64,000 bases of DNA, taken from a virus. A model generated the notes under the pieces. It did not search any database. It saw only the letters and a list, made by a program, of their open reading frames with translations, and was not told the origin of the DNA. The DNA is taken from the IMG/VR virus record IMGVR_UViG_3300045538_000426, positions 1 through 64,000 of that record. The stretch is one strand, 5' to 3'. Every line of letters begins with the position of its first letter. Position 1 is the stretch's first letter. Both the position numbers and the translations under genes were made by a program. This document shows, in pieces, positions 4,879 to 29,957 of the stretch.

Positions 4879-5174
4879 CTCGTTACGATATAAACAAAAA
4901 CATTAAGACAAGGTTTGATGGAAGGCGTTTTTTTGGAACACGATTGTGTCCAAACATCGCCGAGTCAGACAGTGACATCATCTATATAACTAAGGAAACG
5001 GATTATTTGGATTCGCTCGCACATCGTTTCTATAAAGACAAAACTCTATGGTGGGTGATTGCTGCTGCCAACAATATGGGGAACGGCCGGTTGAGTGTAG
5101 AACCGGGTCTTCAGATAAGAATTCCAATGAGAATCGAACAAATTCTTGCGGGATACAATAAAATAAATAGTTGA
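4875..5174 (+). CDS. gp53-like baseplate wedge protein with LysM-type fold
   Basis: 99 residues. The core reads DYLDSLAHRFYKDKTLWWVIAAANN followed by a Gly, then LSVEPGLQIRIP (given here in parts). This is the LysM-like arrangement of T4 gp53-family wedge proteins: a helix with H-x-F-Y, the W-W-x-I-A-x-A-N-N helix, then P-G-x-x-x-x-I-P. T4 gp53 joins neighbouring wedges in the baseplate. The gene overlaps the upstream baseplate gene by four bases and is followed one base later by another baseplate gene, in keeping with that role. Family assignment is fairly secure; peptidoglycan binding is not implied. Confidence 0.75.
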   Translation: MTRYDINKNIKTRFDGRRFFGTRLCPNIAESDSDIIYITKETDYLDSLAHRFYKDKTLWWVIAAANNMGNGRLSVEPGLQIRIPMRIEQILAGYNKINS

Positions 5175-5175
5175 T

Positions 5176-7548
5176 ATGGCAATTCAATTGTTACCACCAT
5201 ACGCATCAGTCCCAATTAGCGGATACATGCGCAGCGAATTTAAACGACGACGAGACACGTATGGGATGAAATATGTCGGCAACAGTTCGTATGGGACCCA
5301 AGGACCGGATATACCTAGAATGGCTGATTATCGAGGTCCGATGTCATCGTGGATTCGTGTTGTTTCCAATGGAATAACCAACGAACATGGCACTGGTTTT
5401 GTTTTGAAAGGTGGCGACGGATTCGACGCATCCTATGGGTATGGGATAAACGGAAGTAAGAAATCAGTTATTGGATATACTCACAACGGCACCCCACACG
5501 TCATTGACAATTCCCGTGCAGAAACATTACAGAAACACCGCCCGATACCCGGTATAGAGAGCATCGAGGTCGATATCAGAAAAGATGTTTATAGACTGGC
5601 GTTCATAAAGTGGAAGTGTTATTCCGTGGAACAGTTGAATTACATGATGCCTTATATGTTCACTCCGTATACCACGGTGTTATTGGAGTGGGGGTGGAAT
5701 AACTACAATCCACAAAGCTTAATAGATATATCCAAACCAGGTGAACCCACCGAGTTCGTCGAAAATGAAACGGAAATAAAAAAACCAGGGTCAGGGATGT
5801 TGGGGGCTTACATGAACCCGGGGTTAATTGAAGATGGACTTAGAATATCAGAAGGACGATACGATGGCATGATAGGTCACATCGTTAATTTCGACTTCAC
5901 ATTCAATCCATCAGAAATGTGTTTTAATTGCACAACTGAGATTGCTTCTAACAGCAGATTTTATTTTGGATTGATCGCTGATTCGACTTCTGCGGAAATA
6001 GAACAAACCCATTTACTAAACAATTTATCAAAAGCGACAAAATTGGATTTCTTTTCCACAACTGTACCCGCGTTTCTGAACGACTATCTAGCCAATTTCT
6101 CAGTCGAGGGACAGTCAAAAGCTAAAGCTGGCCATGAAGATAAAAACCCGTATCTTAAATTAATAAAAGGAAGGATTTTCTCTCCGAACTATTATCTCTC
6201 GACACTGAATGGCAATAAGACTCAGTCGGCAGGACACATTTACGTGTCGTTTGGATTGTTAGTGGATATACTGAATAAGGAATTCGCCAATCCTACAAAT
6301 CAAATAAACATCAAAATTGAAAATCAGAAAATCGGAGGTCATCCGAATTTGGTTTCCTGTTCTGATAAATTTTTGATACCGAATGCGTCGGCGCCATATT
6401 TCAACCCAAGTACATTATCTGATTCAGTGTCTCCTGGTTATGCCGATGAGCCGGTTTTATACGAGTCTTCAGCTGGAAATGAAAATCAAACGTCGGATAA
6501 ACTTCTCAAGAAAATACTTTTCACAAAAAAACGTCAAAATTTAGATAAAGTTATAAACTATTTGAAAGTGGAGCCGGTGGAAACACAATTTCCATCTTCG
6601 GCTAACCACTATGAGGGAATGTTGAAGAATATTTATTTGAGTTTTGATTTTTTGAAAGAACAAATCAGTTCCACCCCTGATCTAAGAAGTTTTCTAAAAT
6701 CCATATGTGAGATGTTAAATGATAACGTTCCCGTGTGGAGACTTGAAGTCATTGAATGGGAAAACAACATATCAATACGGGACATTAACTACCTTGACGT
6801 GGAAATCCTTACTAAGAAAAAAGCATCATTTGGCATAGACAATGGAGATCCTGCTATCTATATGTTTGACGCTTTTTCACGGAATTCGTTTTTCAAAGAA
6901 TTTGGCTTCAATGTCAAATTATCAGACGCGATAGCTAATGCTGTTGTAAATCAAGTAAACAATCAGATTGTTTCTGATAAGAAAGGTGAACCGGAGAGTT
7001 CTACTGGAAACGTGACGAACCGACTATATGTATTTCCTGTAGTAAACGACGTTTTGCTTAAAGGAATGCCGACACGTAAAGCAGGTTCTATCGAGGGCAT
7101 ACCGAATACACCACTCTCCTCAACGATTGCGGCGAGCTTGGCCGCGATTGTGAAACGTGAAGCCGATGAGTTAACGAACATCGACCACGCGACAATTTCC
7201 TTTAGAAAAAGTATAAAAGTCGACGGAAAGCCGACCACGGGCGTAATCAGACTCGTAATGCCGGGTGAATCCGGTAAGGCTAAGCTAAAACAATTATTGG
7301 ATGACAATAGCGTGGAGTTTTCTAGTATAAGCACCATGCCGATTCCCGGTGTGAAGGTGGAATTTTCAATCTTAGGAATATCCGGGTTCAGAATGTTTCA
7401 GATATTTGGTGTAAACAACTTACCGAAACCATATGACAACGTTTTCTTCCAGATAACGGAGTTGAGACATAGCGTCTCCGATGATGGTTGGATAACACGA
7501 GTCACCGCTGCCGTCCGTCCGAGGGGGTCTATATTATCTTTGATATAA
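5176..7548 (+). CDS. Large baseplate or hub structural protein
   Basis: 790 residues. Residues about 110-190 contain SIEVDIRKDVYRLAFIKWKC, then LNYMMPYMFTPYTTVLLEWGW, a pattern common in baseplate-region proteins of marine T4-like phages, where a helix ending in a Met-Pro-Tyr-Met turn precedes a beta strand with EWGW. The rest is mixed alpha/beta with no enzyme motif seen; the C-terminus (VRPRGSILSL) is beta-rich. It follows the gp53-like gene by one base, and its TAA overlaps the ATG of the next gene. Structural role in the baseplate is inferred from family resemblance and position. Confidence 0.55.
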   Translation: MAIQLLPPYASVPISGYMRSEFKRRRDTYGMKYVGNSSYGTQGPDIPRMADYRGPMSSWIRVVSNGITNEHGTGFVLKGGDGFDASYGYGINGSKKSVIGYTHNGTPHVIDNSRAETLQKHRPIPGIESIEVDIRKDVYRLAFIKWKCYSVEQLNYMMPYMFTPYTTVLLEWGWNNYNPQSLIDISKPGEPTEFVENETEIKKPGSGMLGAYMNPGLIEDGLRISEGRYDGMIGHIVNFDFTFNPSEMCFNCTTEIASNSRFYFGLIADSTSAEIEQTHLLNNLSKATKLDFFSTTVPAFLNDYLANFSVEGQSKAKAGHEDKNPYLKLIKGRIFSPNYYLSTLNGNKTQSAGHIYVSFGLLVDILNKEFANPTNQINIKIENQKIGGHPNLVSCSDKFLIPNASAPYFNPSTLSDSVSPGYADEPVLYESSAGNENQTSDKLLKKILFTKKRQNLDKVINYLKVEPVETQFPSSANHYEGMLKNIYLSFDFLKEQISSTPDLRSFLKSICEMLNDNVPVWRLEVIEWENNISIRDINYLDVEILTKKKASFGIDNGDPAIYMFDAFSRNSFFKEFGFNVKLSDAIANAVVNQVNNQIVSDKKGEPESSTGNVTNRLYVFPVVNDVLLKGMPTRKAGSIEGIPNTPLSSTIAASLAAIVKREADELTNIDHATISFRKSIKVDGKPTTGVIRLVMPGESGKAKLKQLLDDNSVEFSSISTMPIPGVKVEFSILGISGFRMFQIFGVNNLPKPYDNVFFQITELRHSVSDDGWITRVTAAVRPRGSILSLI

Positions 7549-7928
7549 TGAAAAACATTCTCGTTCAGTATTCTAAATTAAGTCCGATTTCGTTGAATTT
7601 CGTGTATGCCGAGGAGTTTCTCCCATCTCCGAGTAAATCGGATTATGACGAAGGTGTAATCACACGATATTTCGTAAGAAAAGTAAACGACCCCGCTATT
7701 ATTGAGGTAGATTTGGCAAATTACGAATCTGTGTCAAGCGCACTGTATAGTAGAGTTGATTTGGAATGGGTAATTTCCGGCCCCAAAAACAACGTATATT
7801 TTGAAGGAAAGATTCAACTATCCGGTGCGTCGGAAAAGAATGCCAAATCCGTGACCGCTGCTGCCAAGTCAATGAACGGAATCGAAAACAAACTGATAAA
7901 TTTTTCTCAGTTTTTCCGAAGCAAATAG
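7548..7928 (+). CDS. Small protein of the baseplate operon, function unknown
   Basis: 126 residues. A longer reading frame begins at 7488, but the ATG at 7548 is preferred because it overlaps the upstream stop (TAATG) and removes a poorly conserved extension. The sequence is beta-rich, with DLEWVISGPKNNVYFEGKI near the middle and a C-terminal helix with KSVTAAAKSMNGIE. I recall similar short proteins with a GPKNN(I/V)YF motif beside baseplate genes of marine phages, all uncharacterised. It is the last gene of the tail block, before a new promoter, and is probably a minor tail component. Confidence 0.5.
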   Translation: MKNILVQYSKLSPISLNFVYAEEFLPSPSKSDYDEGVITRYFVRKVNDPAIIEVDLANYESVSSALYSRVDLEWVISGPKNNVYFEGKIQLSGASEKNAKSVTAAAKSMNGIENKLINFSQFFRSK

Positions 7929-7929
7929 A

Positions 7930-7958
7930 TTGACAATCGACTATGGGTGGTATAAGAT
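7930..7958 (+). promoter_or_regulatory. sigma70-like promoter for the polymerase A-like gene
   Basis: TTGACA (7930-7935), 17 bases, TAAGAT (7953-7958). The expected start of transcription is within about three bases of the ATG at 7968, so the message would have almost no leader. Confidence 0.55.
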
Positions 7959-7967
7959 ATCACCGAT

Positions 7968-9338
7968 ATGGAAGTTGTCGATTCACTATCTTACAAATCA
8001 TTTATAAGTGGGATACACTCACAAGATGTGTTTGTGGATTATGTCCTATCCAAGAATGGAATCCACACCGCTGACAACACCGTGATGTCATTGTTCGTTA
8101 AGAATATCAAAAGTGGTAAAACTTACGTGGTTAACGTGAATCACCAAGACATCGCTCCTACGGGAATAGAAATTCAAAAATTGGTAGGATTGGTCGTGGA
8201 TATTGCAGGTCGTGTTTTTGTCGTCGACAAAAAGAGATTTGTCAATCTGTTCAAAAAATCAAACGTCAATGATATATTGATATTCGAGTTCCAACAGGGT
8301 TACGAGTTGACCGACCTCCTCGAACTTAGGACGGATTATCACGTTCTTATAGAAAGGGAGTTGGGTGAATCGTATGTCGGCCTTAACCACGTCATTCCAC
8401 TTGCAAAACACATTGAACGGTTCGAAAAAACATTCTGTCACTTTAAAGAAAGTTTGGTTGAGTTTGAATCCGATTATTCATTTGAGAAGGTCAATGGAGT
8501 TATAACCGAGACTTTAAGCGACGTTGAGTCGAACGGCATATGCATTGACGTGGATATATTTAACCAACATTTCTCAGATAGAGGGGTGGTGGAGAGGTCA
8601 CCGATGGTCTATTCTGAATACAACCTATTTACATCTACCGGTCGACCGAGCAATCGATTTGCTAAAGTAAATTATGCTGCTTTGAATAAAGACGATGGCA
8701 GTAGGTCGTCATTCATCTCTAGGTTTGGTTCGGATGGGGTTTTGGTGTGTATAGACTATAGTGCATACCACCCACATATAGTGGCGAATCTAATCAATTT
8801 TAAATTAGACCCTACCACGAATGTCTATGCGTTCCTAGGCAAGTCATTCTTTAATAAGGAAGAATTGACTACTGAAGAGATTAAATCGTCAAAAAACATC
8901 ACATTCCAGAATTTCTACGGAGGAATTCGGTCGGAATATATGGGAGTGGAGTTCTTCAAAAAGACCGCTGAATACATCGAACACCGTTGGAATTTCTTTT
9001 TAAAGAATGGGTATGTGGAAACTCCGGTGTTCAAACGTCGGATAACGAACCACCATATTTCCGACCCAAATCCCAACAAGCTGTTCAATTATCTTCTACA
9101 AGCAGCGGAAACGGAATTTTCTATACAAAACATCGCACGGGTGAATGATTTTCTGAAAACCAAACAATCCAAAGTGGTTCTGTATACATACGACTCCATC
9201 CTTGTAGATGCGTCGAAGGAAGATGGTAAGGAAACCCTCATCCGAATCAGGGATATTATGGTGGATAACCAGTTCCCCGTAAAGTGTCACGTTGGAAAAA
9301 ATTATAACGATTTGTGTGAAATTGAACTCAAACATTGA
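7968..9338 (+). CDS. Small family A DNA polymerase-like protein
   Basis: 456 residues. The C-terminal half has the order of family A palm and fingers motifs: STGRPSNR (about 223-230) with NYAALNK; motif A DYSAYHPH (263-270) in place of DYSQIELR; motif B K309-x3-F313-x3-YG (KNITFQNFYGG); and motif C YTYDS (406-410) in place of VHDE. The two catalytic aspartates (D263, D409) are kept. The arginine of motif B and the His and Glu of motif C are changed. The first 200 residues resemble a 3'-5' exonuclease fold without an evident D-x-E motif, so proofreading is doubtful. No 5' nuclease domain. A full family B polymerase lies at 56.7 kb, so this is probably a specialised or accessory polymerase. Promoter directly upstream. 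Confidence 0.65.
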   Translation: MEVVDSLSYKSFISGIHSQDVFVDYVLSKNGIHTADNTVMSLFVKNIKSGKTYVVNVNHQDIAPTGIEIQKLVGLVVDIAGRVFVVDKKRFVNLFKKSNVNDILIFEFQQGYELTDLLELRTDYHVLIERELGESYVGLNHVIPLAKHIERFEKTFCHFKESLVEFESDYSFEKVNGVITETLSDVESNGICIDVDIFNQHFSDRGVVERSPMVYSEYNLFTSTGRPSNRFAKVNYAALNKDDGSRSSFISRFGSDGVLVCIDYSAYHPHIVANLINFKLDPTTNVYAFLGKSFFNKEELTTEEIKSSKNITFQNFYGGIRSEYMGVEFFKKTAEYIEHRWNFFLKNGYVETPVFKRRITNHHISDPNPNKLFNYLLQAAETEFSIQNIARVNDFLKTKQSKVVLYTYDSILVDASKEDGKETLIRIRDIMVDNQFPVKCHVGKNYNDLCEIELKH

Positions 9339-17820: not shown

Positions 17821-17940
17821 CCCCACTATCAAACAACATTCAAAAAACACAAAACTTTTTTGCCGAAATTTTCCGACAAATGAATGGTTTCACTGGGTCA
17901 AAGGATAATTATTCCCACGGAAATTAGTTACCAGATTTTT

Positions 17941-19911
17941 ATGACAGATATTATTACAGCAGCATTTTTAGAAAAGTACAAAAACAAACAACCAAATTGG
18001 GGATTCGGAGAATTGGGATATGTCGTCTACAAACGAACATATTCAAGAACCAAAGAAAACGGTGAATCGGAGGAGTGGTTCGAGACGGTGGCTAGATGTA
18101 TAAACGGTGCTCAGAAAATAGGAGCATCTTATACAAAGGCTGAGGCCGAACGTCTGTATGATTTGGTATTCAACCTGAAATGTAATTTCGCCGGGAGGAT
18201 GCTATGGCAGCTAGGAACGTCCACCGTTGACAGATTTGGAGCCAACAGTCTGCTCAATTGTTGGTATGTGAGTATGAATGAACCCAAAGCGTTCACATTC
18301 CTATTTGAGAATCTTATGTTAGGGGGCGGCGTGGGATACAGCATTCGTCGGGAAGATGTCCACGAATTGCCAAAGGTGCTGAAATCAGTATCGGTGGAAC
18401 ATATCAACACAAAGGACGCTGATTTCATCGTTCCCGATACAAGGGAGGGTTGGGTTAAACTTCTTGAGTATACGTTGAATTCCTTTTATGTTAACGGCAA
18501 ATCGTTCACCTATTCTACTATTCTGGTCAGAGGCGCCGGTGAAAAAATCAATGGATTTGGTGGAAAGGCTAGTGGGCCTGCCATTTTGGTTGAGGGTATA
18601 ACAAAAATATCCAAGATATTTCAATCTCGTGAGGGAAAGAAATTAAGAAGTGTGGATGTATTGGATGTATGTAATATCATAGGAAGCGTAGTGGTAGCTG
18701 GAAACGTCCGACGTTCCGCTGAGATTGCTCTTGGAGATCCAGATGACATACTTTATCTCCGAGCTAAGAATTGGAACACCGGTGACATCCCGAACTGGAG
18801 ATCGATGTCAAATAACACTATTTACGTTGATGATTTCGAACATATCATGCAGGAGGTATGGGAGAATGGATACATTATAAACAAGGAGACTGGACAGGCA
18901 AACGGAGAACCGTATGGGTTTTTCAACCAACCGCTTTCTCAGAAATATGGAAGAATCGGCGACGGCCCGATGAAGAATTCCAATATTTATCCGACCGATT
19001 TTGATAACGTAGTTGGAACGAATCCATGTGGAGAAATTTCGCTGGCCAACTATGAGTGTTGTAATCTATGTGAATTACACCTGAATAACATCACGGACGA
19101 AAATGAACTATATGACGCTGCTAGATTGTTATACAAGTCACAGAAAGCGATAGCGTCACTTCCGTTTATCCACGATGAAACCACTAAAATCGTTCACAAG
19201 AACATGCGACTTGGACTCGGAGTGACGGGAGTATGTCAGTCATTGGATAAGATAAAATGGCTGGATGCATGTTATGTGAAGTTGCGTAAGTTCGATCGTG
19301 AATGGAGTAAGGAAAAGAATTATCCAGAAAGCATAAAACTTACCACAATCAAACCATCCGGCACACTTTCCATATTGGGAGGTTCTACGCCTGGAATACA
19401 TCCCGCTTACAGCAAGTATTACATGAGAACCATTCGTGTTGCTAGTTCCGACAAATTAGCGAAGGCTTGTAAAGATGCTGGGTATAGATGTGAATATCTC
19501 CTTAAATACGACGGCACCGAACAACACGACACTGTTGTAATATATTTTCCATGTATGACTCCCGACGGAGCTGTCTTGGCGAAGGATATGGATGTGATTA
19601 AACAACTTGAGATGGTAAAGTTGTTGCAGAGTTCATGGAGCGATAATGCGGTGAGTGTCACTGCTTACTATAAAGAGGAAGAATTGGAGACTCTCAAGTC
19701 TTGGCTCAAGGAAAATTACGAGAAGAATATTAAAAGTGTAAGCTTCCTACTTCACAAGGAACATGGGTTCAAACAGGCCCCATATATAGAAATAACCGAG
19801 AACGAATACACTGAAGCTCGTTCTAAGATAAAGAAGATAGTGATAGTAAACGATGAACCTAGTATGATTCAAGGAATCGAATGTGAGGGTGGAGCGTGCC
19901 CTATACGATAA
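17941..19911 (+). CDS. nrdJ: B12-dependent (class II) ribonucleotide reductase
   Basis: 656 residues from the ATG at 17941; an in-frame ATG at 17884 would add 19 residues. The later start is preferred because phage homologues begin close to FLEKYKNKQPNWGF. Hallmarks: LLNCWYVSMNEP (first redox cysteine), LGGGVGYSIRRED (substrate/effector region), TNPCGEISL (about 360-368, thiyl radical Cys and general-base Glu), KPSGTLSILGGSTPGIHP, and a C-terminal ECEGGACPIR with the re-reducing cysteine pair. The form is the monomeric ribonucleoside-triphosphate reductase that needs adenosylcobalamin. It makes dNTPs for phage DNA and would depend on host or environmental B12. It follows the helicase by a short AT-rich gap. 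Confidence 0.85.
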   Translation: MTDIITAAFLEKYKNKQPNWGFGELGYVVYKRTYSRTKENGESEEWFETVARCINGAQKIGASYTKAEAERLYDLVFNLKCNFAGRMLWQLGTSTVDRFGANSLLNCWYVSMNEPKAFTFLFENLMLGGGVGYSIRREDVHELPKVLKSVSVEHINTKDADFIVPDTREGWVKLLEYTLNSFYVNGKSFTYSTILVRGAGEKINGFGGKASGPAILVEGITKISKIFQSREGKKLRSVDVLDVCNIIGSVVVAGNVRRSAEIALGDPDDILYLRAKNWNTGDIPNWRSMSNNTIYVDDFEHIMQEVWENGYIINKETGQANGEPYGFFNQPLSQKYGRIGDGPMKNSNIYPTDFDNVVGTNPCGEISLANYECCNLCELHLNNITDENELYDAARLLYKSQKAIASLPFIHDETTKIVHKNMRLGLGVTGVCQSLDKIKWLDACYVKLRKFDREWSKEKNYPESIKLTTIKPSGTLSILGGSTPGIHPAYSKYYMRTIRVASSDKLAKACKDAGYRCEYLLKYDGTEQHDTVVIYFPCMTPDGAVLAKDMDVIKQLEMVKLLQSSWSDNAVSVTAYYKEEELETLKSWLKENYEKNIKSVSFLLHKEHGFKQAPYIEITENEYTEARSKIKKIVIVNDEPSMIQGIECEGGACPIR

Positions 19912-19948: not shown

Positions 19949-19997
19949 GGGAAACCTATGTTACGTGCGTTAACTGGTAAATAGAAAATCTCCGTGT

Positions 19998-20330
19998 ATG
20001 TCAGACGAATCCGAACTACAAAAAGAATGGCGGGACATTGTTATAAAGAAGCTCAATAGTATTGAAGCTGAACAGAAAACAATGCAAATCTCACTATCTG
20101 GTAACGTAGTCATAGCAAATGACGTAGCTGGTATTATTGCGAAAGCTAAAGTCGTGGACGAGGATATAAAGGCTCTACGGATAGAAGTCAAACACGATAG
20201 GGAGGAAGCTGACCGAAAATATGTGTCAAAACAAGAATTTACGTTGGTCGAAAAAATAGTTTACGGAGCATCGGGTCTGATTCTTCTTGCTGTATTCGGT
20301 GCTCTCATTACACTTGTCATAAGAAAATGA
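19998..20330 (+). CDS. Small coiled-coil protein with C-terminal membrane helix, holin-like
   Basis: 110 residues. Residues 1-80 are charged and predicted to be coiled coil (KKLNSIEAEQKTM, EDIKALRIEVKHDREEADRKY). A single hydrophobic helix follows (about 86-107, VYGASGLILLAVFGALITLVI) and the protein ends IRK. Short phage proteins of this shape, with YVSKQEF before the membrane helix, resemble XhlA-type membrane proteins that act with holins. The last codons overlap the ATG of the PAS gene by four bases, so the two are translated together. A lysis role is possible but no endolysin was found nearby; a membrane anchor for the PAS protein is another option. Confidence 0.6.
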   Translation: MSDESELQKEWRDIVIKKLNSIEAEQKTMQISLSGNVVIANDVAGIIAKAKVVDEDIKALRIEVKHDREEADRKYVSKQEFTLVEKIVYGASGLILLAVFGALITLVIRK

Positions 20331-20812
20331 ACCGAAACATCAATGTTGTCACTGACGAGTTGAATAAGATAGAAGAGAGACGAAAGCTGGCTCTCTCAGC
20401 TACGAATACTGGAATTTGGGATTGGGACATAATAAAAGACACTCTGACATGGGATGAGGCTATGTTGGATATCTATGGACTTACAGCTAAACAATTCGGC
20501 GGCCGGTATGAGGCGTGGACGAGTCTTTTGCACCCAGATGATTTGAAGCACACTACCGGAGCGTTACACCGTTGCTTAAGCGACCCATCTAAGGCTTATT
20601 TTTACCGTTTTAGAATAAACAGGTTGGGGGAGACGCGAGTGGTATCCGGGTTCGGAAATTGTATTCGTGATAAAGATGGGAAGCCTATTAGGATGGTTGG
20701 CATAAATATCCTAGAACCACCACATTGCGTTGAACACGATGAACGGGCCAAACGAAATGACCCATGCGACATTTGTCCGTCTCGTTTCATGAAAATGTAT
20801 GAGACGGTGTGA
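20327..20812 (+). CDS. Free-standing PAS-domain protein with Cys/His tail
   Basis: 161 residues. A short helix (LNKIEERRKLAL) leads into a PAS_3-type fold: SATNTGIWDWDIIKDTLTWDEAM, IYGLTAKQF, WTSLLHPDD, YFYRFRINRLGETRVVSG, and the PAC segment IRDKDGKPIRMVGINI (quoted in pieces). The C-terminal tail has C134, H137, C147 and C150 (CVEH, then CDIC), which could bind a metal or be redox-active. No kinase, GGDEF or DNA-binding domain is attached. PAS domains sense ligands, light, redox state or oxygen and pass the signal to partner proteins. Overlap with the upstream membrane-protein gene suggests a functional pair. PAS proteins are uncommon in phages. Confidence 0.8.
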   Translation: MNRNINVVTDELNKIEERRKLALSATNTGIWDWDIIKDTLTWDEAMLDIYGLTAKQFGGRYEAWTSLLHPDDLKHTTGALHRCLSDPSKAYFYRFRINRLGETRVVSGFGNCIRDKDGKPIRMVGINILEPPHCVEHDERAKRNDPCDICPSRFMKMYETV

Positions 20813-20857
20813 GTAAAAGAAATTGATTATAGGTCAGTTCCGATTTACACTTCCACG

Positions 20858-21628
20858 GTGGAATCTCCATGTAATACGACAAAAGTCTATCTTAGGCAAA
20901 TCAATAAGAGTATCGCCAAGGATATAATAGTAAAAAATCACTACAGCCACAAATGGACATTGTGTCAGGTAGCTTATGGAGTGTTTTTTAGGACTGATTC
21001 ACCGAACGATTTTTTTGACGAAAGTGAAGATAAATTAATTGGATGCCTCATTTACGGTCAACCGGTTGGTAGGAGTGCAGCTGCTTCTCTGTCGGATCTA
21101 TTGAAAATAGATGAAGTCTTTGAACTCACCCGTCTTTTCATTTTTGATGGATATGGTAGAAACATCGAGAGTTACTCCATAGCACAGTCATTCAAACTTT
21201 TAAATCGGGATTTTCCACGAATAAAAGCAGTATTGAGTTACGCGGATGGTGAACAAGGACATAACGGTGTGATATATCAAGCCACTGGTTTTCATTATCA
21301 AGGGAATTCCTCACTTGCTCTCATGCCTAACTTTAGTCTAAGTCTCGTCGGACCCCCAAATTACGAGTGGATGCACAGTCGGTCAGTTACGTCTAGGTGG
21401 AAAAGTTGCAACGTAGACCATCTGAAAAGATGTATAGGAAAAACCTTTTATAGAAAGAAAGAATCTACCAAACATAGGTATATAATCTTCATCGGAAGTC
21501 GAGTGGAGAAGAAAAAACTCCTAAAATCCCTAAAACATCCCGTTCTTCCATATCCAAAGTCGTCTCATCACGTCGATGAAATCGAGGAGATAATTGTTTC
21601 CACCACTAAATCGTCTGAGTTTTTTTAA
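20858..21628 (+). CDS. Mom-like (GNAT-fold) protein, possible DNA base-modification enzyme
   Basis: 256 residues from a GTG; no ATG is available near the conserved start. Conserved features are IAKDIIVKNHYSHKWT, GVFF, LIGCLIYGQPVGR, ELTRLFIFDGYGRN-ES, IKAVLSYADGEQGHNGVIYQATGF and FHYQG (longer strings split). The order (N/K-H-Y-S-H, a gap, the E-L-T-R-L strand, then Y-A-D-x-x-x-G-H-x-G-x-I-Y-Q-A) is that of phage proteins related to Mu Mom, which have an acetyltransferase-like fold and in Mu modify adenine in DNA against restriction. The C-terminal 80 residues are basic (KKKLLKSLKHP). The frame is the same as that of the PAS gene, separated from it by one stop codon. Function is inferred by family resemblance only. 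Confidence 0.55.
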   Translation: MESPCNTTKVYLRQINKSIAKDIIVKNHYSHKWTLCQVAYGVFFRTDSPNDFFDESEDKLIGCLIYGQPVGRSAAASLSDLLKIDEVFELTRLFIFDGYGRNIESYSIAQSFKLLNRDFPRIKAVLSYADGEQGHNGVIYQATGFHYQGNSSLALMPNFSLSLVGPPNYEWMHSRSVTSRWKSCNVDHLKRCIGKTFYRKKESTKHRYIIFIGSRVEKKKLLKSLKHPVLPYPKSSHHVDEIEEIIVSTTKSSEFF

Positions 21629-22430
21629 TATACAAAACCCAATCTTTATGAGACGGCCTGATGCCTTTAGTTAATCGATTTACATTTGGTTGGTTCAATG
21701 TGTATTTTTTTATAAAATCGTATTGTGTTCCTGTATACTCTTCTAAAGTTTTACGATTCTTAAATGTGTAGATCGATTTATCTTGCAATAATTTATTAGG
21801 TCTTCCTCTTAATACATCACTCAATTTTTTCTTAGTATCACTGCTTAGAGATTTTCCATAATTAAATCCGTTTTTTCCTGACAACGACTTACGAATTTTA
21901 TCCTTAGTTTTCTCGGAAAGAATTTTTCCGGTTTGACTCACAGACATTTTTTGTCGAGATTCTAATGTGTGGTTCCTCCCCAACATAGGGTGTTTGTGTT
22001 TGGTGTACCTTTTCCTTAAAGATCTGCCAATGGTTTTTTTCATTTCCTCTGTCATTTCTACTCTCCCCGACAAAAACTGTTGGTTATACGAGGAATATTG
22101 TTCGTTTTTTGCAATGTCCAAATATTTTTGTTCAACATTAACAACATCGTCAGATACCTCTATTATCGAAAATAAAAAAGAACTTTCTCCGTAATTATCC
22201 CAAGACCTTTGTAAGTGGATATTATCGTGTTGATGATGTCTTAATTCATAGACGTGATTATACCACCTATTTATAATATTTTTTGATCCACCGACGTAAT
22301 ACTTCCCATTAACGTTGTTAGTTATCTTGTAGACTCCGCTTATTTTTCCAATACCTTTCCATTCGTTTATTGCAAATTTCCTGTTTATTAGATATATAAT
22401 ATCGTTTGGATCTGTTGTTAGATTGTTCAT
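21606..22430 (-). CDS. GIY-YIG homing endonuclease with NUMOD3 repeats
   Basis: 274 residues from the ATG at 22430; in-frame starts at 22529 and 22613 would run against the neighbouring gene and add unconserved residues. The catalytic domain has SGVYKITNNVNGKYYVGGS (GIY and YIG motifs as GVY and YVG), the basic IINRWYNH segment, and ESSFLFSIIE with the metal-binding Glu. Three NUMOD3-type DNA-binding repeats follow (HTLESRQKMSVSQTG, LSEKTKDKIRKSLSG, LSSDTKKKLSDVLRG), and a helix-turn-helix-like C-terminus. It is on the opposite strand to its neighbours and overlaps the 3' end of the Mom-like gene by 23 bases. This is a mobile gene that spreads by cutting related genomes lacking it. Confidence 0.85.
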   Translation of the reverse strand: MNNLTTDPNDIIYLINRKFAINEWKGIGKISGVYKITNNVNGKYYVGGSKNIINRWYNHVYELRHHQHDNIHLQRSWDNYGESSFLFSIIEVSDDVVNVEQKYLDIAKNEQYSSYNQQFLSGRVEMTEEMKKTIGRSLRKRYTKHKHPMLGRNHTLESRQKMSVSQTGKILSEKTKDKIRKSLSGKNGFNYGKSLSSDTKKKLSDVLRGRPNKLLQDKSIYTFKNRKTLEEYTGTQYDFIKKYTLNQPNVNRLTKGIRPSHKDWVLYIKKTQTI

Positions 22431-22548
22431 CGAGTTCTTTCTTGGTTCGGTTGAGTTTTTTTCTTCCCATGTCAATAAGTATTGAGTGATAACATAAAAC
22501 GTGAGAACTTTCAGTCTAAATAATGCCATTGAAACCTTTTTCTGACCA

Positions 22549-22556
22549 TATTTATA
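22549..22556 (+). promoter_or_regulatory. Candidate phage promoter element TATTTATA
   Basis: Perfect octamer ending 4 bases before the ATG at 22561; the closest spacing in the window. Transcription would start at the start codon itself. Confidence 0.45.
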
Positions 22557-22560
22557 GGAT

Positions 22561-23625
22561 ATGAAACAATTTGAACTCAAGAATCTCGTCCGTACATTGG
22601 TGGCCGAGGCCATAGCCGGTCACGAATCACACGACGAAATTCCTGACATAGAACCTTCCGGTGATGCCAAGAAAAAAGTCGAGGGGTTGTTTAATGGCAG
22701 CATGGTGGTATCTTTCACCGACATAGAGGAGATTGCATATAGTTATGTGAAAGATGTGGATCAAGCGGAATCTCTCCGTGAAGAACTTATTGAGTATGCC
22801 AAGACAATTTCCGAACCTCTCGGATATCTACCCGATTCACGGGGTGAATTTTTCATCCGTAGGCCAACTCACGGAGATCTCCAACGTCAATATGGCGATA
22901 AGCTCAAAAATCCAGCTCAGAAGGAATCGGAAGTCGATGAGATCAGAACATTGAATGAATCTAATTTAAATGCGTTCAAAAAGCTGATACGAGAAGTTGT
23001 GGAGGAAGTGAAATCGGAAAATGACAAATCCATCGAAGACGATATGCTTTCTGTGTTGAAGATGTTAAAGGAACACAATAAGAAATTCTCTTTCCGAAAG
23101 AACAAGATGGGAAATTATGACGTGGTGGGATGTTCTCCTACACAGATAGAAGTCAGGCCTATGTATATGGGATCGTATGATGTTATATTCATGGTTGATG
23201 GGACGGATAGGGAAAAGAAGTTGAGTTTGGATCTGAAGGGCGTGAAGGAGTTTATAAAGGGGAAACTCACCTCCAAGTCAGAAAATTATACAAAGACCGC
23301 ATTTAACAAAACGGCAAGTACCACGGAAGATGTTACAAAGAAAACCGCTGGATTGCCGGAAACTAAGCAGAACGACATTAAAAAAGTCGGCGACACTAAA
23401 AACGAAAACAAAGATCATAACGAAGCTGAAGTGAAGAAGGAAGAGGATATGCCGGATAAACCTCTACGTGAAGTCGGTGACGTGAAGAAACAGGATTCCC
23501 ATGACGATGACTCTGGTGCAAAATACAAATTTCCAAAACAAGACAAGGATGAAAAGAAACACGTTGTCAAGGGTGGTAAGGGAAAAGAACTAAAACTGTC
23601 TGCTAAAAAAATAGCCAAGAAGTAA
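22561..23625 (+). CDS. Charged helical protein, possible head or core protein
   Basis: 354 residues. The N-terminus (FELKNLVRTLVAEAI) and a second segment near 140-157 (LNAFKKLIREVVEEV) repeat the same amphipathic motif L-x-x-L-I/V-R-x-x-V-x-E. The middle (160-245) is a compact alpha/beta domain with YDVVGCSPTQIEV and GSYDVIFMVDG. The last 110 residues are low-complexity and rich in Lys, Asp and Glu (DDDSGAKYKF, KKHVVKGGKG). I have seen the R-E-V-L-x-E N-terminal motif in several uncharacterised phage structural proteins. A promoter octamer 12 bases upstream suggests late expression. Internal scaffold or packaged protein is a guess; no enzyme motif. Confidence 0.5.
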   Translation: MKQFELKNLVRTLVAEAIAGHESHDEIPDIEPSGDAKKKVEGLFNGSMVVSFTDIEEIAYSYVKDVDQAESLREELIEYAKTISEPLGYLPDSRGEFFIRRPTHGDLQRQYGDKLKNPAQKESEVDEIRTLNESNLNAFKKLIREVVEEVKSENDKSIEDDMLSVLKMLKEHNKKFSFRKNKMGNYDVVGCSPTQIEVRPMYMGSYDVIFMVDGTDREKKLSLDLKGVKEFIKGKLTSKSENYTKTAFNKTASTTEDVTKKTAGLPETKQNDIKKVGDTKNENKDHNEAEVKKEEDMPDKPLREVGDVKKQDSHDDDSGAKYKFPKQDKDEKKHVVKGGKGKELKLSAKKIAKK

Positions 23626-27525: not shown

Positions 27526-28710
27526 ATGAGTTCACCTAGCGATTTTTTTGATGTAGTGGAGTTTGATTACGATCTTGAGAAAAAGAAATTCATAGACAAT
27601 CTCAATTTCTTAAAAAACATGGATGTTCACGAACAGACATTCTATAAGAAGTGGTATGAATTACAATCTTATAATTCACTAATTTCAAATTCTACGTTGA
27701 CGAAGGCCAGTGTATGGAACGCATCTGATATTTTGGACGAAAAATCTACCATATCCGAGATTGAGGCTATGAATCCCACCATCGAACTTGTAAAAACAAA
27801 AGCTGATGAAAATCACTGGCTCATGCTTAGGTTGTTTTGTCACACGATGGAATTCAGTCAGACGCCCGGTAGATTTCTGAAATTTCTGATACACGACGGT
27901 TCGCCTGAGAAAAAGTATCTAGGTGGTATATCTGTGTCCAGTGATGTTATAGCTATAACCGACAGAGACAATTACATCGGATGGTCTTCTGAAAATCGAC
28001 TTAAGGGAAACAAAAGAATAAATAACAGTTCGATAGGTAGTTGTATAATGTCGACGCAACCGTTTGGTTATAATTTCTTAGGTGGTAAGTTGGGTGCGTG
28101 TCTTGTGACTACGGATGTTGTTCGTGAAACGTGGAAATCACAATATGACGCGGTGTTAGCCGGGATGACCACGACAAGTTTATACGGCAGTTTCAGTATG
28201 TATAATAGTCTAAAATGGTGGTATAAATGTGGGACTAGTGCTGGAAAAATCTCGATAAAGCCAGATGATTCTGTTTACGAAATTTGGCATCATTGGATTC
28301 AGAAGAACAAGCCAGCGGAATATGCAAAAATGATGACGCAGAAAGAGGGTGTATCAGGACCTGTCACAGGAGCAAAACAAAGAGTAATATCAACGGTGTT
28401 TAGTCAACTTGGAATAAAAGCGTCCGATTACGTTCACGGATTCCAACGTGGAACGTATTACAGCTCATTTTATGAAAATACTAGGGATTTTCTATGTGAC
28501 AAGATAACGGAAAATGAACTGGTTATGAAACCACTGTTCGCCGGCGACAAGAATTTGATTTTGGAATGGTGGAGGCCTCGTGCGATTGAGCGGTATAAGA
28601 AACTCCGTTCCGAGGGGAAGTTAAAAAGTGACGTTCTTTATTACAATGACATGATTGGAATGGAATACAACGAAGCAAAGGAGAGATATTTAAATGAAGT
28701 TGGAAGATAG
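27526..28710 (+). CDS. DUF4338 / DruA-like protein (first copy)
   Basis: 394 residues, no membrane segment. The central part matches the layout of DUF4338 proteins: FLIHDGSPEKKYLGGISVSSDVIA (residues split at the gap), DRDNYIGWSSENRLKG, NNSSIGSCI, then GACLVTTDVVRETWKSQY, TTTSLYGSFSMYN and WWYKCGTSAGKI. DUF4338 includes DruA of the Druantia anti-phage system, and related proteins occur in phages and large viruses; their biochemical activity is not established. A flanking helical N-terminus (1-110) and C-terminal helix (RERYLNEVGR-like end) are extra. It overlaps the next gene by 17 bases. The second copy at 31.7 kb is closer to the DUF4338 consensus. Confidence 0.5.
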   Translation: MSSPSDFFDVVEFDYDLEKKKFIDNLNFLKNMDVHEQTFYKKWYELQSYNSLISNSTLTKASVWNASDILDEKSTISEIEAMNPTIELVKTKADENHWLMLRLFCHTMEFSQTPGRFLKFLIHDGSPEKKYLGGISVSSDVIAITDRDNYIGWSSENRLKGNKRINNSSIGSCIMSTQPFGYNFLGGKLGACLVTTDVVRETWKSQYDAVLAGMTTTSLYGSFSMYNSLKWWYKCGTSAGKISIKPDDSVYEIWHHWIQKNKPAEYAKMMTQKEGVSGPVTGAKQRVISTVFSQLGIKASDYVHGFQRGTYYSSFYENTRDFLCDKITENELVMKPLFAGDKNLILEWWRPRAIERYKKLRSEGKLKSDVLYYNDMIGMEYNEAKERYLNEVGR

Positions 28711-29098
28711 AAAATTAATCCAAATTGGAGAGGTCGGTAATGAATTTACGAGGTTCATTTCGTCAGCTGGGTTATCTATGGCCACCGGATACAATAGAAT
28801 CGTGTTCGGTGCTAGGGGACCATATATAGAATTCGATCCATCTCATATCATACATACAAACATCCATATACCCGAGAACCAATTGTTTAGGATAAGCGAC
28901 CCACGTATTTACTATATAGAATTTCGTAGTTGTGACGTGGCTGCTGTTAAGGTGTATTATCAGATGAGAACAGTCGCTTATGCTGACTATAAGATAGGAA
29001 TGTTCTACATATCTCCATTGGAACTACAATTAATGGGTGGAGAAAATGTTCTGAAACTTACCTCTGAAAACGAAAAGAGTAGAGAATTTTTTGAATAA
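28694..29098 (+). CDS. Conserved phage protein of unknown function
   Basis: 134 residues. The core reads ATGYNRIVFGARGPYIEF, then NIHIPENQLFRI, YYIEFRSCD, VKVYYQMRTVAYADYKIG and MFYISPLEL. I recall this combination (GYNR-x-V-x-G-x-RGPY-x-E-F with TVAYADYK-x-G-M-F-Y) from uncharacterised proteins of marine phages and bacteria. It appears to be a compact beta-rich domain with conserved Arg, Glu and Tyr residues that could be an active site. It starts inside the end of the DUF4338-like gene and is followed 4 bases later by the metallo-beta-lactamase-fold gene. Function unknown. Confidence 0.55.
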   Translation: MKLEDRKLIQIGEVGNEFTRFISSAGLSMATGYNRIVFGARGPYIEFDPSHIIHTNIHIPENQLFRISDPRIYYIEFRSCDVAAVKVYYQMRTVAYADYKIGMFYISPLELQLMGGENVLKLTSENEKSREFFE

Positions 29099-29102
29099 AT
29101 TT

Positions 29103-29957
29103 ATGAAAACCATTGATCTACAACCTAAAGAAATTGTTCCGATTATGGATCAGTTGAAACAACATAGTAAAGACGGTCTTGTGTTGTGTTTTGTCGGTGT
29201 CGGCAGCGCGTGGAGCAAGAGGAATGTCAATACAAGTTTAATTGTTGCAAAAAATGGGATAACAATCTTAGTTGATATCGGAAGAAACATCCCAGAGGAG
29301 TTAGCTAAGATGGGTGTGGATATGCTTGATTTTGACTACTACCATTTTACACACAGCCATTGTGACCACGTCGGCGGCGCGGAACAACTACTACTCCAGC
29401 TTCGTTATATCAAAAAGAAAAAGGCCAAGGTAATCATAACCAATGAATACCAACAGGTTCTTTGGAACGAAACCCTAAAGGGAGGGTGTGAGATAAATGA
29501 GGACGGTTTGCTTCGGTTTACTGATTTTGTTGAAGTCATTAGGCCGGATTGGATGGCCGGTCAACCTCGTGAAAAATATCACATCAAATTAGACGGTGTC
29601 TTGGAATTTGATATTTTTAGAACCTTTCATGTTCCTGGAAATGTAAATAGTTGGGAGAAGGCATTCTGGTCAACTGGTCTTATTTTGGATAAAAAAGCAA
29701 TATTCACCGCTGACACCAGGTTCGATCTTTCTATATTCGAACATCTTGAATTTGACGGAGTGGAGGCAATATATCACGATTGTCAGTTATCCGGCCCAGG
29801 TTCAGTTCACGCTACATACGAGGAACTCACTCGTCTCATGCCGTCATATAAAGAGAGGATGTTTCTCACTCATTACGGAGACAATTTCGAAAAATTCGAC
29901 CCACAGTCAGATGGCTTCCGTGGGTTTGCAAAGCCGTGGGTGGTATATAAATTCTAA
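29103..29957 (+). CDS. Metallo-beta-lactamase-fold hydrolase (RNase Z-like)
   Basis: 284 residues from the ATG at 29103; a TTG 12 bases upstream overlaps the previous stop. The fold's metal ligands are visible: HSHCDHVGG (H-x-H-x-D-H), the His in RTFHVPGN, the Asp in FTADTRFD and the His in FLTHYGD. The N-terminal FVGVGSAWSKRNVNTS resembles the opening of RNase Z and PhnP-type phosphodiesterases. Enzymes of this group cut tRNA 3' trailers, cyclic nucleotides or phosphonate-linked cyclic phosphates. With no tRNA genes in this window and no clear exosite arm, the substrate cannot be told; breakdown of a cyclic-nucleotide defence signal is one possibility. Confidence 0.7.
   Translation: MKTIDLQPKEIVPIMDQLKQHSKDGLVLCFVGVGSAWSKRNVNTSLIVAKNGITILVDIGRNIPEELAKMGVDMLDFDYYHFTHSHCDHVGGAEQLLLQLRYIKKKKAKVIITNEYQQVLWNETLKGGCEINEDGLLRFTDFVEVIRPDWMAGQPREKYHIKLDGVLEFDIFRTFHVPGNVNSWEKAFWSTGLILDKKAIFTADTRFDLSIFEHLEFDGVEAIYHDCQLSGPGSVHATYEELTRLMPSYKERMFLTHYGDNFEKFDPQSDGFRGFAKPWVVYKF

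Follow-up and report, generated by a model that had tools for sequence, protein, structure and literature searches.

Phage sensing of the state of the host is known chiefly from temperate phages, where transcription factors and peptides carry it out. The described system nearest to a phage-borne PAS sensor is VqmA of vibriophage VP882, which controls the entry into lysis by transcription (PMC8284805, PMC12802170); this phage VqmA, found in VP882 and in VP882-like linear plasmid phages, is a soluble PAS and DNA-binding transcription factor that acts on qtip in temperate phages. At the membrane, LysF1b of F1 mycobacteriophages is a single-TMD protein that controls lysis timing without a sensor domain, and the lysis genes of T4 are dispersed, not clustered (PMC13056207). 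LysF1b and the type III holins of T4 and phiKZ are tied to lysis by experiment, and neither a PAS nor any other sensor is described for these regulators (PMC13056207). In the openly licensed literature we found no description of a membrane-tethered phage PAS and nothing relevant that links a PAS to holins or to lysis timing.

The locus studied here lies in a window of 64,000 nucleotides, the whole stretch of DNA that was analysed, which corresponds to positions 1-64,000 of a 122,969-base IMG/VR virus record. The record carries T4-like replication genes (UvsX-like recombinase, DNA polymerase, clamp loader and single-strand binding protein). On the plus strand, the gene of a class II-type ribonucleotide reductase (RNR) is followed by those of a small membrane protein (hereafter CC-TM), of a free-standing PAS protein and of a Mom-family protein, with a minus-strand homing endonuclease gene behind them:

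17884..19911, plus strand: class II-type RNR, the upstream neighbour (PF17975, PF02867, PF21995, phrog_367)
19953..20813, plus strand: swapped cassette, at whose edges the DNA homology with the sister phage L001 breaks
19998..20330, plus strand: CC-TM protein, 110 aa (open reading frame, helix prediction; homologue in L155 at 56% identity)
20327..20812, plus strand: free-standing PAS_3 protein, 161 aa (PAS_3 profile match at 20444-20707; homologue in L155 at 61% identity)
20726..20776, plus strand: Cys/His tail of the PAS protein, C134-x2-H137-x9-C147-x2-C150 (alignment; conserved in L155)
20858..21628, plus strand: Mom-family DNA modification protein, 256 aa, the downstream neighbour (PF25680, phrog_1384)

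The homing endonuclease (GIY-YIG/NUMOD3, 21606-22613 of the window) has only a short matching stretch in L001 (8744-8836) and none in L002-L006. The RNR gene of the window is uninterrupted, unlike those of L001, L030 and L031, which contain intein- or intron-like insertions (~6234-6741, ~5586-7051 and ~4882-6294, respectively). Elsewhere, the window encodes a phage-borne DruA-family protein, a component of Druantia defence (27526-28707; PF14236 E=4e-26), and an anti-Pycsar Apyc1-type protein (29091-29954; PF23023 E=1.5e-32). Outside the window, at record positions 81010-85826 (L156/L157), the gene of a PSCyt1-DUF1549-DUF1553 protein (PF07583 E=6e-69; PF07635, planctomycete cytochrome c) adjoins that of a DUF1501 protein (PF07394 E=2e-134); this pair is of planctomycete/verrucomicrobia type, unexpected in a phage, and thus points to such a host.

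The 161-aa protein is a member of the PAS_3 family, as it matched PF08447 with E=2.3e-18 and 66.7 bits, above the gathering score of 25.6, and the PDB folds closest to its AlphaFold model (mean pLDDT 86.6) were those of FixL, LOV-HK and further PAS chains. The initial annotation had described it as a PAS protein without an output domain, and this was borne out: PAS_3 was the sole domain found, with no output domain, HTH or other domain detected by Pfam, PHROG or the model. Like VqmA, which is tied to a lysis decision, it is a phage PAS related to host signalling; unlike VqmA, it carries no DNA-binding domain beside the PAS and is paired with a membrane protein. It shares 32-47% identity with bacterial histidine-kinase-type PAS domains. 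These relatives are parts of larger proteins, most of them with a DIT motif (all 35 inspected sit in open frames of at least 415 aa), whereas the phage copy is free-standing and, in the alignment, the usual 'DIT' exit motif is replaced by the Cys/His tail. It thus has neither the output domain nor the DIT exit linker of a two-component sensor.

All four residues earlier pointed out in this tail (C134, H137, C147, C150) are present and conserved in L155, and the tail is a possible metal site. The suggestion of a redox, oxygen or metal cue gained no support: no LOV Cys motif was seen when the PAS sequence was inspected by eye, the tail was modelled by AlphaFold with low confidence, the alignment of the fused relatives described below contains no invariant Cys or His, and no assignable cofactor emerged. 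When viral contigs were scanned for further PAS relatives, a single-sequence query returned nothing and a two-sequence alignment query returned the L155/L160 contig only. Pseudomonas phage Y10 (OQ572411.1; L243) was rejected as a relative: in this UNVERIFIED record a PAS-GGDEF-like gene stands amid bacterial-looking neighbours, and the DNA is probably host contamination.

CC-TM has a single hydrophobic helix at residues 90-108 (bases 20265-20321; mean Kyte-Doolittle 2.44), and its residues ~1-80 probably make up an N-terminal helical segment; the protein is tail-anchored through the C-terminal helix, with its bulk probably in the cytoplasm. It had been presented as a membrane coiled-coil protein like those acting with holins. 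The membrane helix was confirmed; the coiled coil drew a weak match below the cutoff (Sec3_CC, E=0.037); the likeness to holin partners gained no support in sequence, as neither XhlA nor phrog_937 nor any holin family among the Pfam and PHROG profiles matched at E<=0.1, and the L155 homologue reached phrog_937 with E=0.24 only. The layout, an N-terminal helical part followed by a C-terminal anchor, is nevertheless that of XhlA-type proteins (phrog_937 'hemolysin'). Compared by architecture, CC-TM also resembles LysF1b and the type III holins of phages T4 and phiKZ, which likewise combine one membrane helix, a helical cytoplasmic part and small overlapping genes (PMC13056207); those regulators are known from experiments, the present pair from its sequence.

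The start codon of the PAS gene overlaps the stop codon of the CC-TM gene by 4 bp (ATGA), an arrangement from which translational coupling may be supposed. The initial annotation had made conservation of the pair in other phages a check on its proposal, and this check did not refute it: L155, a 108-kb virus contig, carries the same two genes in the same order and with the overlap kept. No Mom gene was found in the L155 record. CC-TM and PAS are thus a conserved unit, and one that moves.

The position held by the pair between RNR and Mom was then compared across Mom-carrying relatives. In the six closest loci, with five distinct slot proteins, this slot is occupied by one gene of ~200 aa that encodes a fused protein, in which an N-terminal membrane helix is followed by a stalk that carries the motif PNxGxSIKDK(I/V)N and by a PAS_3 domain (TM-stalk-PAS). 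By the positive-inside rule, the PAS domain is cytoplasmic in 12/12 fused proteins checked, a topology like the N-out-C-in orientation of LysF1b. The closest relative, L001, whose Mom is 89% identical, has a single fused gene of this kind in the same slot. Between the window and L001, DNA homology (~78%) ends near 19952 and restarts near 20814, and the fused gene of L001 starts at 7379, two bases past the end of the left flank at 7377; the exchange is thus precise. A tree of the Mom proteins groups the window with L001 as its sister (96/84), within a clade of fused-gene phages (96/89). Because the homology breaks at the slot edges and the window nests among fused-gene phages, the pair is most simply read as a replacement of the fused gene, in which one membrane-tethered PAS would have taken the place of another of separate origin. 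The window pair and the fused proteins share only 14-20% identity over the alignment and their membrane parts show no relation; homology of CC-TM to the stalk was looked for and rejected.

Counted per distinct Mom protein (31 among the closer relatives), nine slots held a fused TM-PAS gene, one the CC-TM and PAS pair, seven a TM-CC protein with a receiver-like protein, five a membrane protein only, six a lipoprotein/TM gene (a lipoprotein with further membrane helices, or membrane genes on the opposite strand as in L020) and three none. In the distant group L034-L060 no membrane gene was found ahead of Mom. The slot labels cluster on the Mom tree (8 changes vs 18.9 when shuffled); despite this, slot content has been exchanged repeatedly, and a membrane part joined to a sensor-type module recurs among the occupants. 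The receiver-like protein was modelled with pLDDT 80 and gave receiver and Rossmann-like matches (TM ~0.6, E ~1e-3), with no Pfam match and an empty PDB sequence search. At the end of strand 3 these proteins have HEN, REN, CEN or HQN, without the phosphoacceptor Asp, so they are not ordinary phosphorelay parts. Their TM-CC partner was considered as a stalk homologue and no relation was found in sequence. Another slot occupant, the protein of CC-TM layout in L009, matches phrog_937 'hemolysin' with E=4e-4.

The downstream protein is a clear Mom-family member (PF25680 E=7e-43, 147 bits against a gathering score of 27.1; phrog_1384 E=6.5e-46). It had been remarked that its gene follows in the PAS frame after one stop codon, and indeed the frame from the PAS stop to the Mom GTG is open after one TGA. 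The last slot gene stands in the frame of Mom in 4/14 slots checked, about the expected third, and the GTG start lines up with that of L001 and that of L005; the shared frame is a coincidence, and a readthrough or fusion of PAS and Mom was rejected on these two grounds. No Mom was found in the flanks examined around the fused gene in L094, L101 and L103 (the contigs of L092 and L093 end shortly after the fused gene). Together with the Mom-less pair of L155, this indicates that Mom is a conserved neighbour of the slot and probably not a partner of the pair. In L033, three tandem Mom-family genes (7106-9151) come right after RNR.

The best clue to what the module may act on comes from the stalk of the fused proteins. 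Each of the 14 fused members hits phrog_9869 (labelled unknown) and, weakly and over the stalk only, the 'holin' family phrog_15431 (best E=3e-4). In 41 loci of uncultivated phages (L104-L144) a stalk-only protein of ~67 aa, with a TM and the motif 'NGGGSIKDK', belongs to the same two PHROGs and is homologous to the fused-family stalk (hhalign probability 98.5%, E=2.3e-15); it has no PAS, and CC-TM is not a homologue of the stalk. In 40/41 of these loci the 67-aa gene lies directly upstream of a gene of one of two families, a CHAP lysin family in 6 loci (CHAP E=1e-13 and 2e-12 in the two scanned) and a family with weak VanY/M15 similarity (E=0.05) in 34, so that elsewhere the stalk belongs to lysis-type neighbourhoods. 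This homology to a membrane protein of lysis cassettes puts a link to lysis on firmer ground than the initial annotation was aware of. At the fused genes that have no RNR beside them in L092-L094 and L101, the neighbours are small lipoproteins and membrane proteins; in L101 a patatin-like phospholipase gene (6890-7831; PF01734 2.5e-27) is directly upstream.

No endolysin gene adjoins the slot in this phage group, where genes for RNR, Mom and an AAA_5 ATPase lie around it; CC-TM therefore has neither the family match nor the endolysin neighbour of a holin. The missing neighbour is not fatal for a lysis reading, given the dispersed lysis genes of T4. Inspection by eye had suggested a SleB-type (Hydrolase_2) endolysin at record positions 65463-66068, but a profile search did not find it. 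The gene of this small SleB-like protein adjoins that of a 322-aa lipoprotein with membrane helices (record 66332-67300; L156 3332-4297), which by eye resembles the 316-aa lipoprotein directly ahead of Mom in L019-L028.

We favour the following explanation, tentatively and at a little short of an even chance as a whole. CC-TM and PAS would act together as a single unit, with the PAS sensor in the cytoplasm and the helical, tail-anchored CC-TM tethering it to the inner membrane; the two chains would do the work of the single TM-stalk-PAS protein of the sister phages. The PAS would derive from bacterial signalling proteins and have lost its output domain; upon binding a small ligand or cofactor it would alter how the membrane partner assembles, and the host would then most likely lyse earlier or later, through an effect of holin or antiholin type that is tuned to the state of the host. 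Binding of the two proteins, ligand sensing and the lysis output are steps that we infer. That the two proteins make up one membrane-tethered sensor unit is very likely. That its output is lysis is possible and would follow from the equivalence of slot and parts with the fused family, since CC-TM itself shows no homology to the stalk or to holin families; lysis timing is the best-supported candidate for the output, owing to the homology of the stalk to a lysin-adjacent protein and the holin PHROG match. Thus, of the original idea of a sensor that times lysis or another membrane event, the conserved pair, the fused parallel and the homology of the stalk to lysis proteins speak in its favour, and the holin likeness of CC-TM and the proposed cue gained no support.

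The same unit might instead play no part in lysis. As a tethered sensor or adaptor it could act early to alter the signalling of the host or the physiology of its membrane, for instance through contact with PAS or two-component proteins of the host, or through exclusion of superinfecting phages. The closeness of the PAS to histidine-kinase-type PAS domains and the receiver-like protein of seven relatives, both two-component-type modules, fit this account, as does the location within an RNR-Mom operon with no endolysin nearby, a nucleotide-metabolism setting which speaks for early or middle expression and against late. The homology of the fused-family stalk to a lysis-cassette protein and the absence of the phosphoacceptor Asp from the receiver-like proteins weigh against it, and we regard it as rather unlikely. 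A unit that responds to oxygen, redox or nucleotide state and localises or regulates RNR or Mom modification at the membrane is improbable: most close relatives do have RNR on one side of the slot and Mom on the other, even with a varying type of RNR, but the fused gene occurs without an upstream RNR in L092-L094, L101 and L103, the pair occurs in L155 without Mom, and neither enzyme has an evident use for membrane anchoring. That CC-TM and PAS are unrelated accessory genes overlapping by chance, as the lack of a joint database family and of direct proof of their interaction would allow, is very improbable and largely refuted by the pair, order and overlap kept in L155 and by the fusion of the same kinds of part in the sister-phage slot.

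The favoured reading of a tethered sensor acting on lysis would, if true, make the PAS or receiver-like module on lysis-type membrane proteins a direct, post-translational sensor, and the question of which cues set lysis timing would become testable with two small proteins. More broadly, there could be a class of phages with an exchangeable module, a PAS or a degenerate receiver on a holin-type helix, through which host physiology sets lysis timing at the protein level without transcription, a doubtful but conceivable generalisation. The slot is in any case a natural experiment, in which unrelated membrane-plus-sensor solutions supplant each other at one locus.
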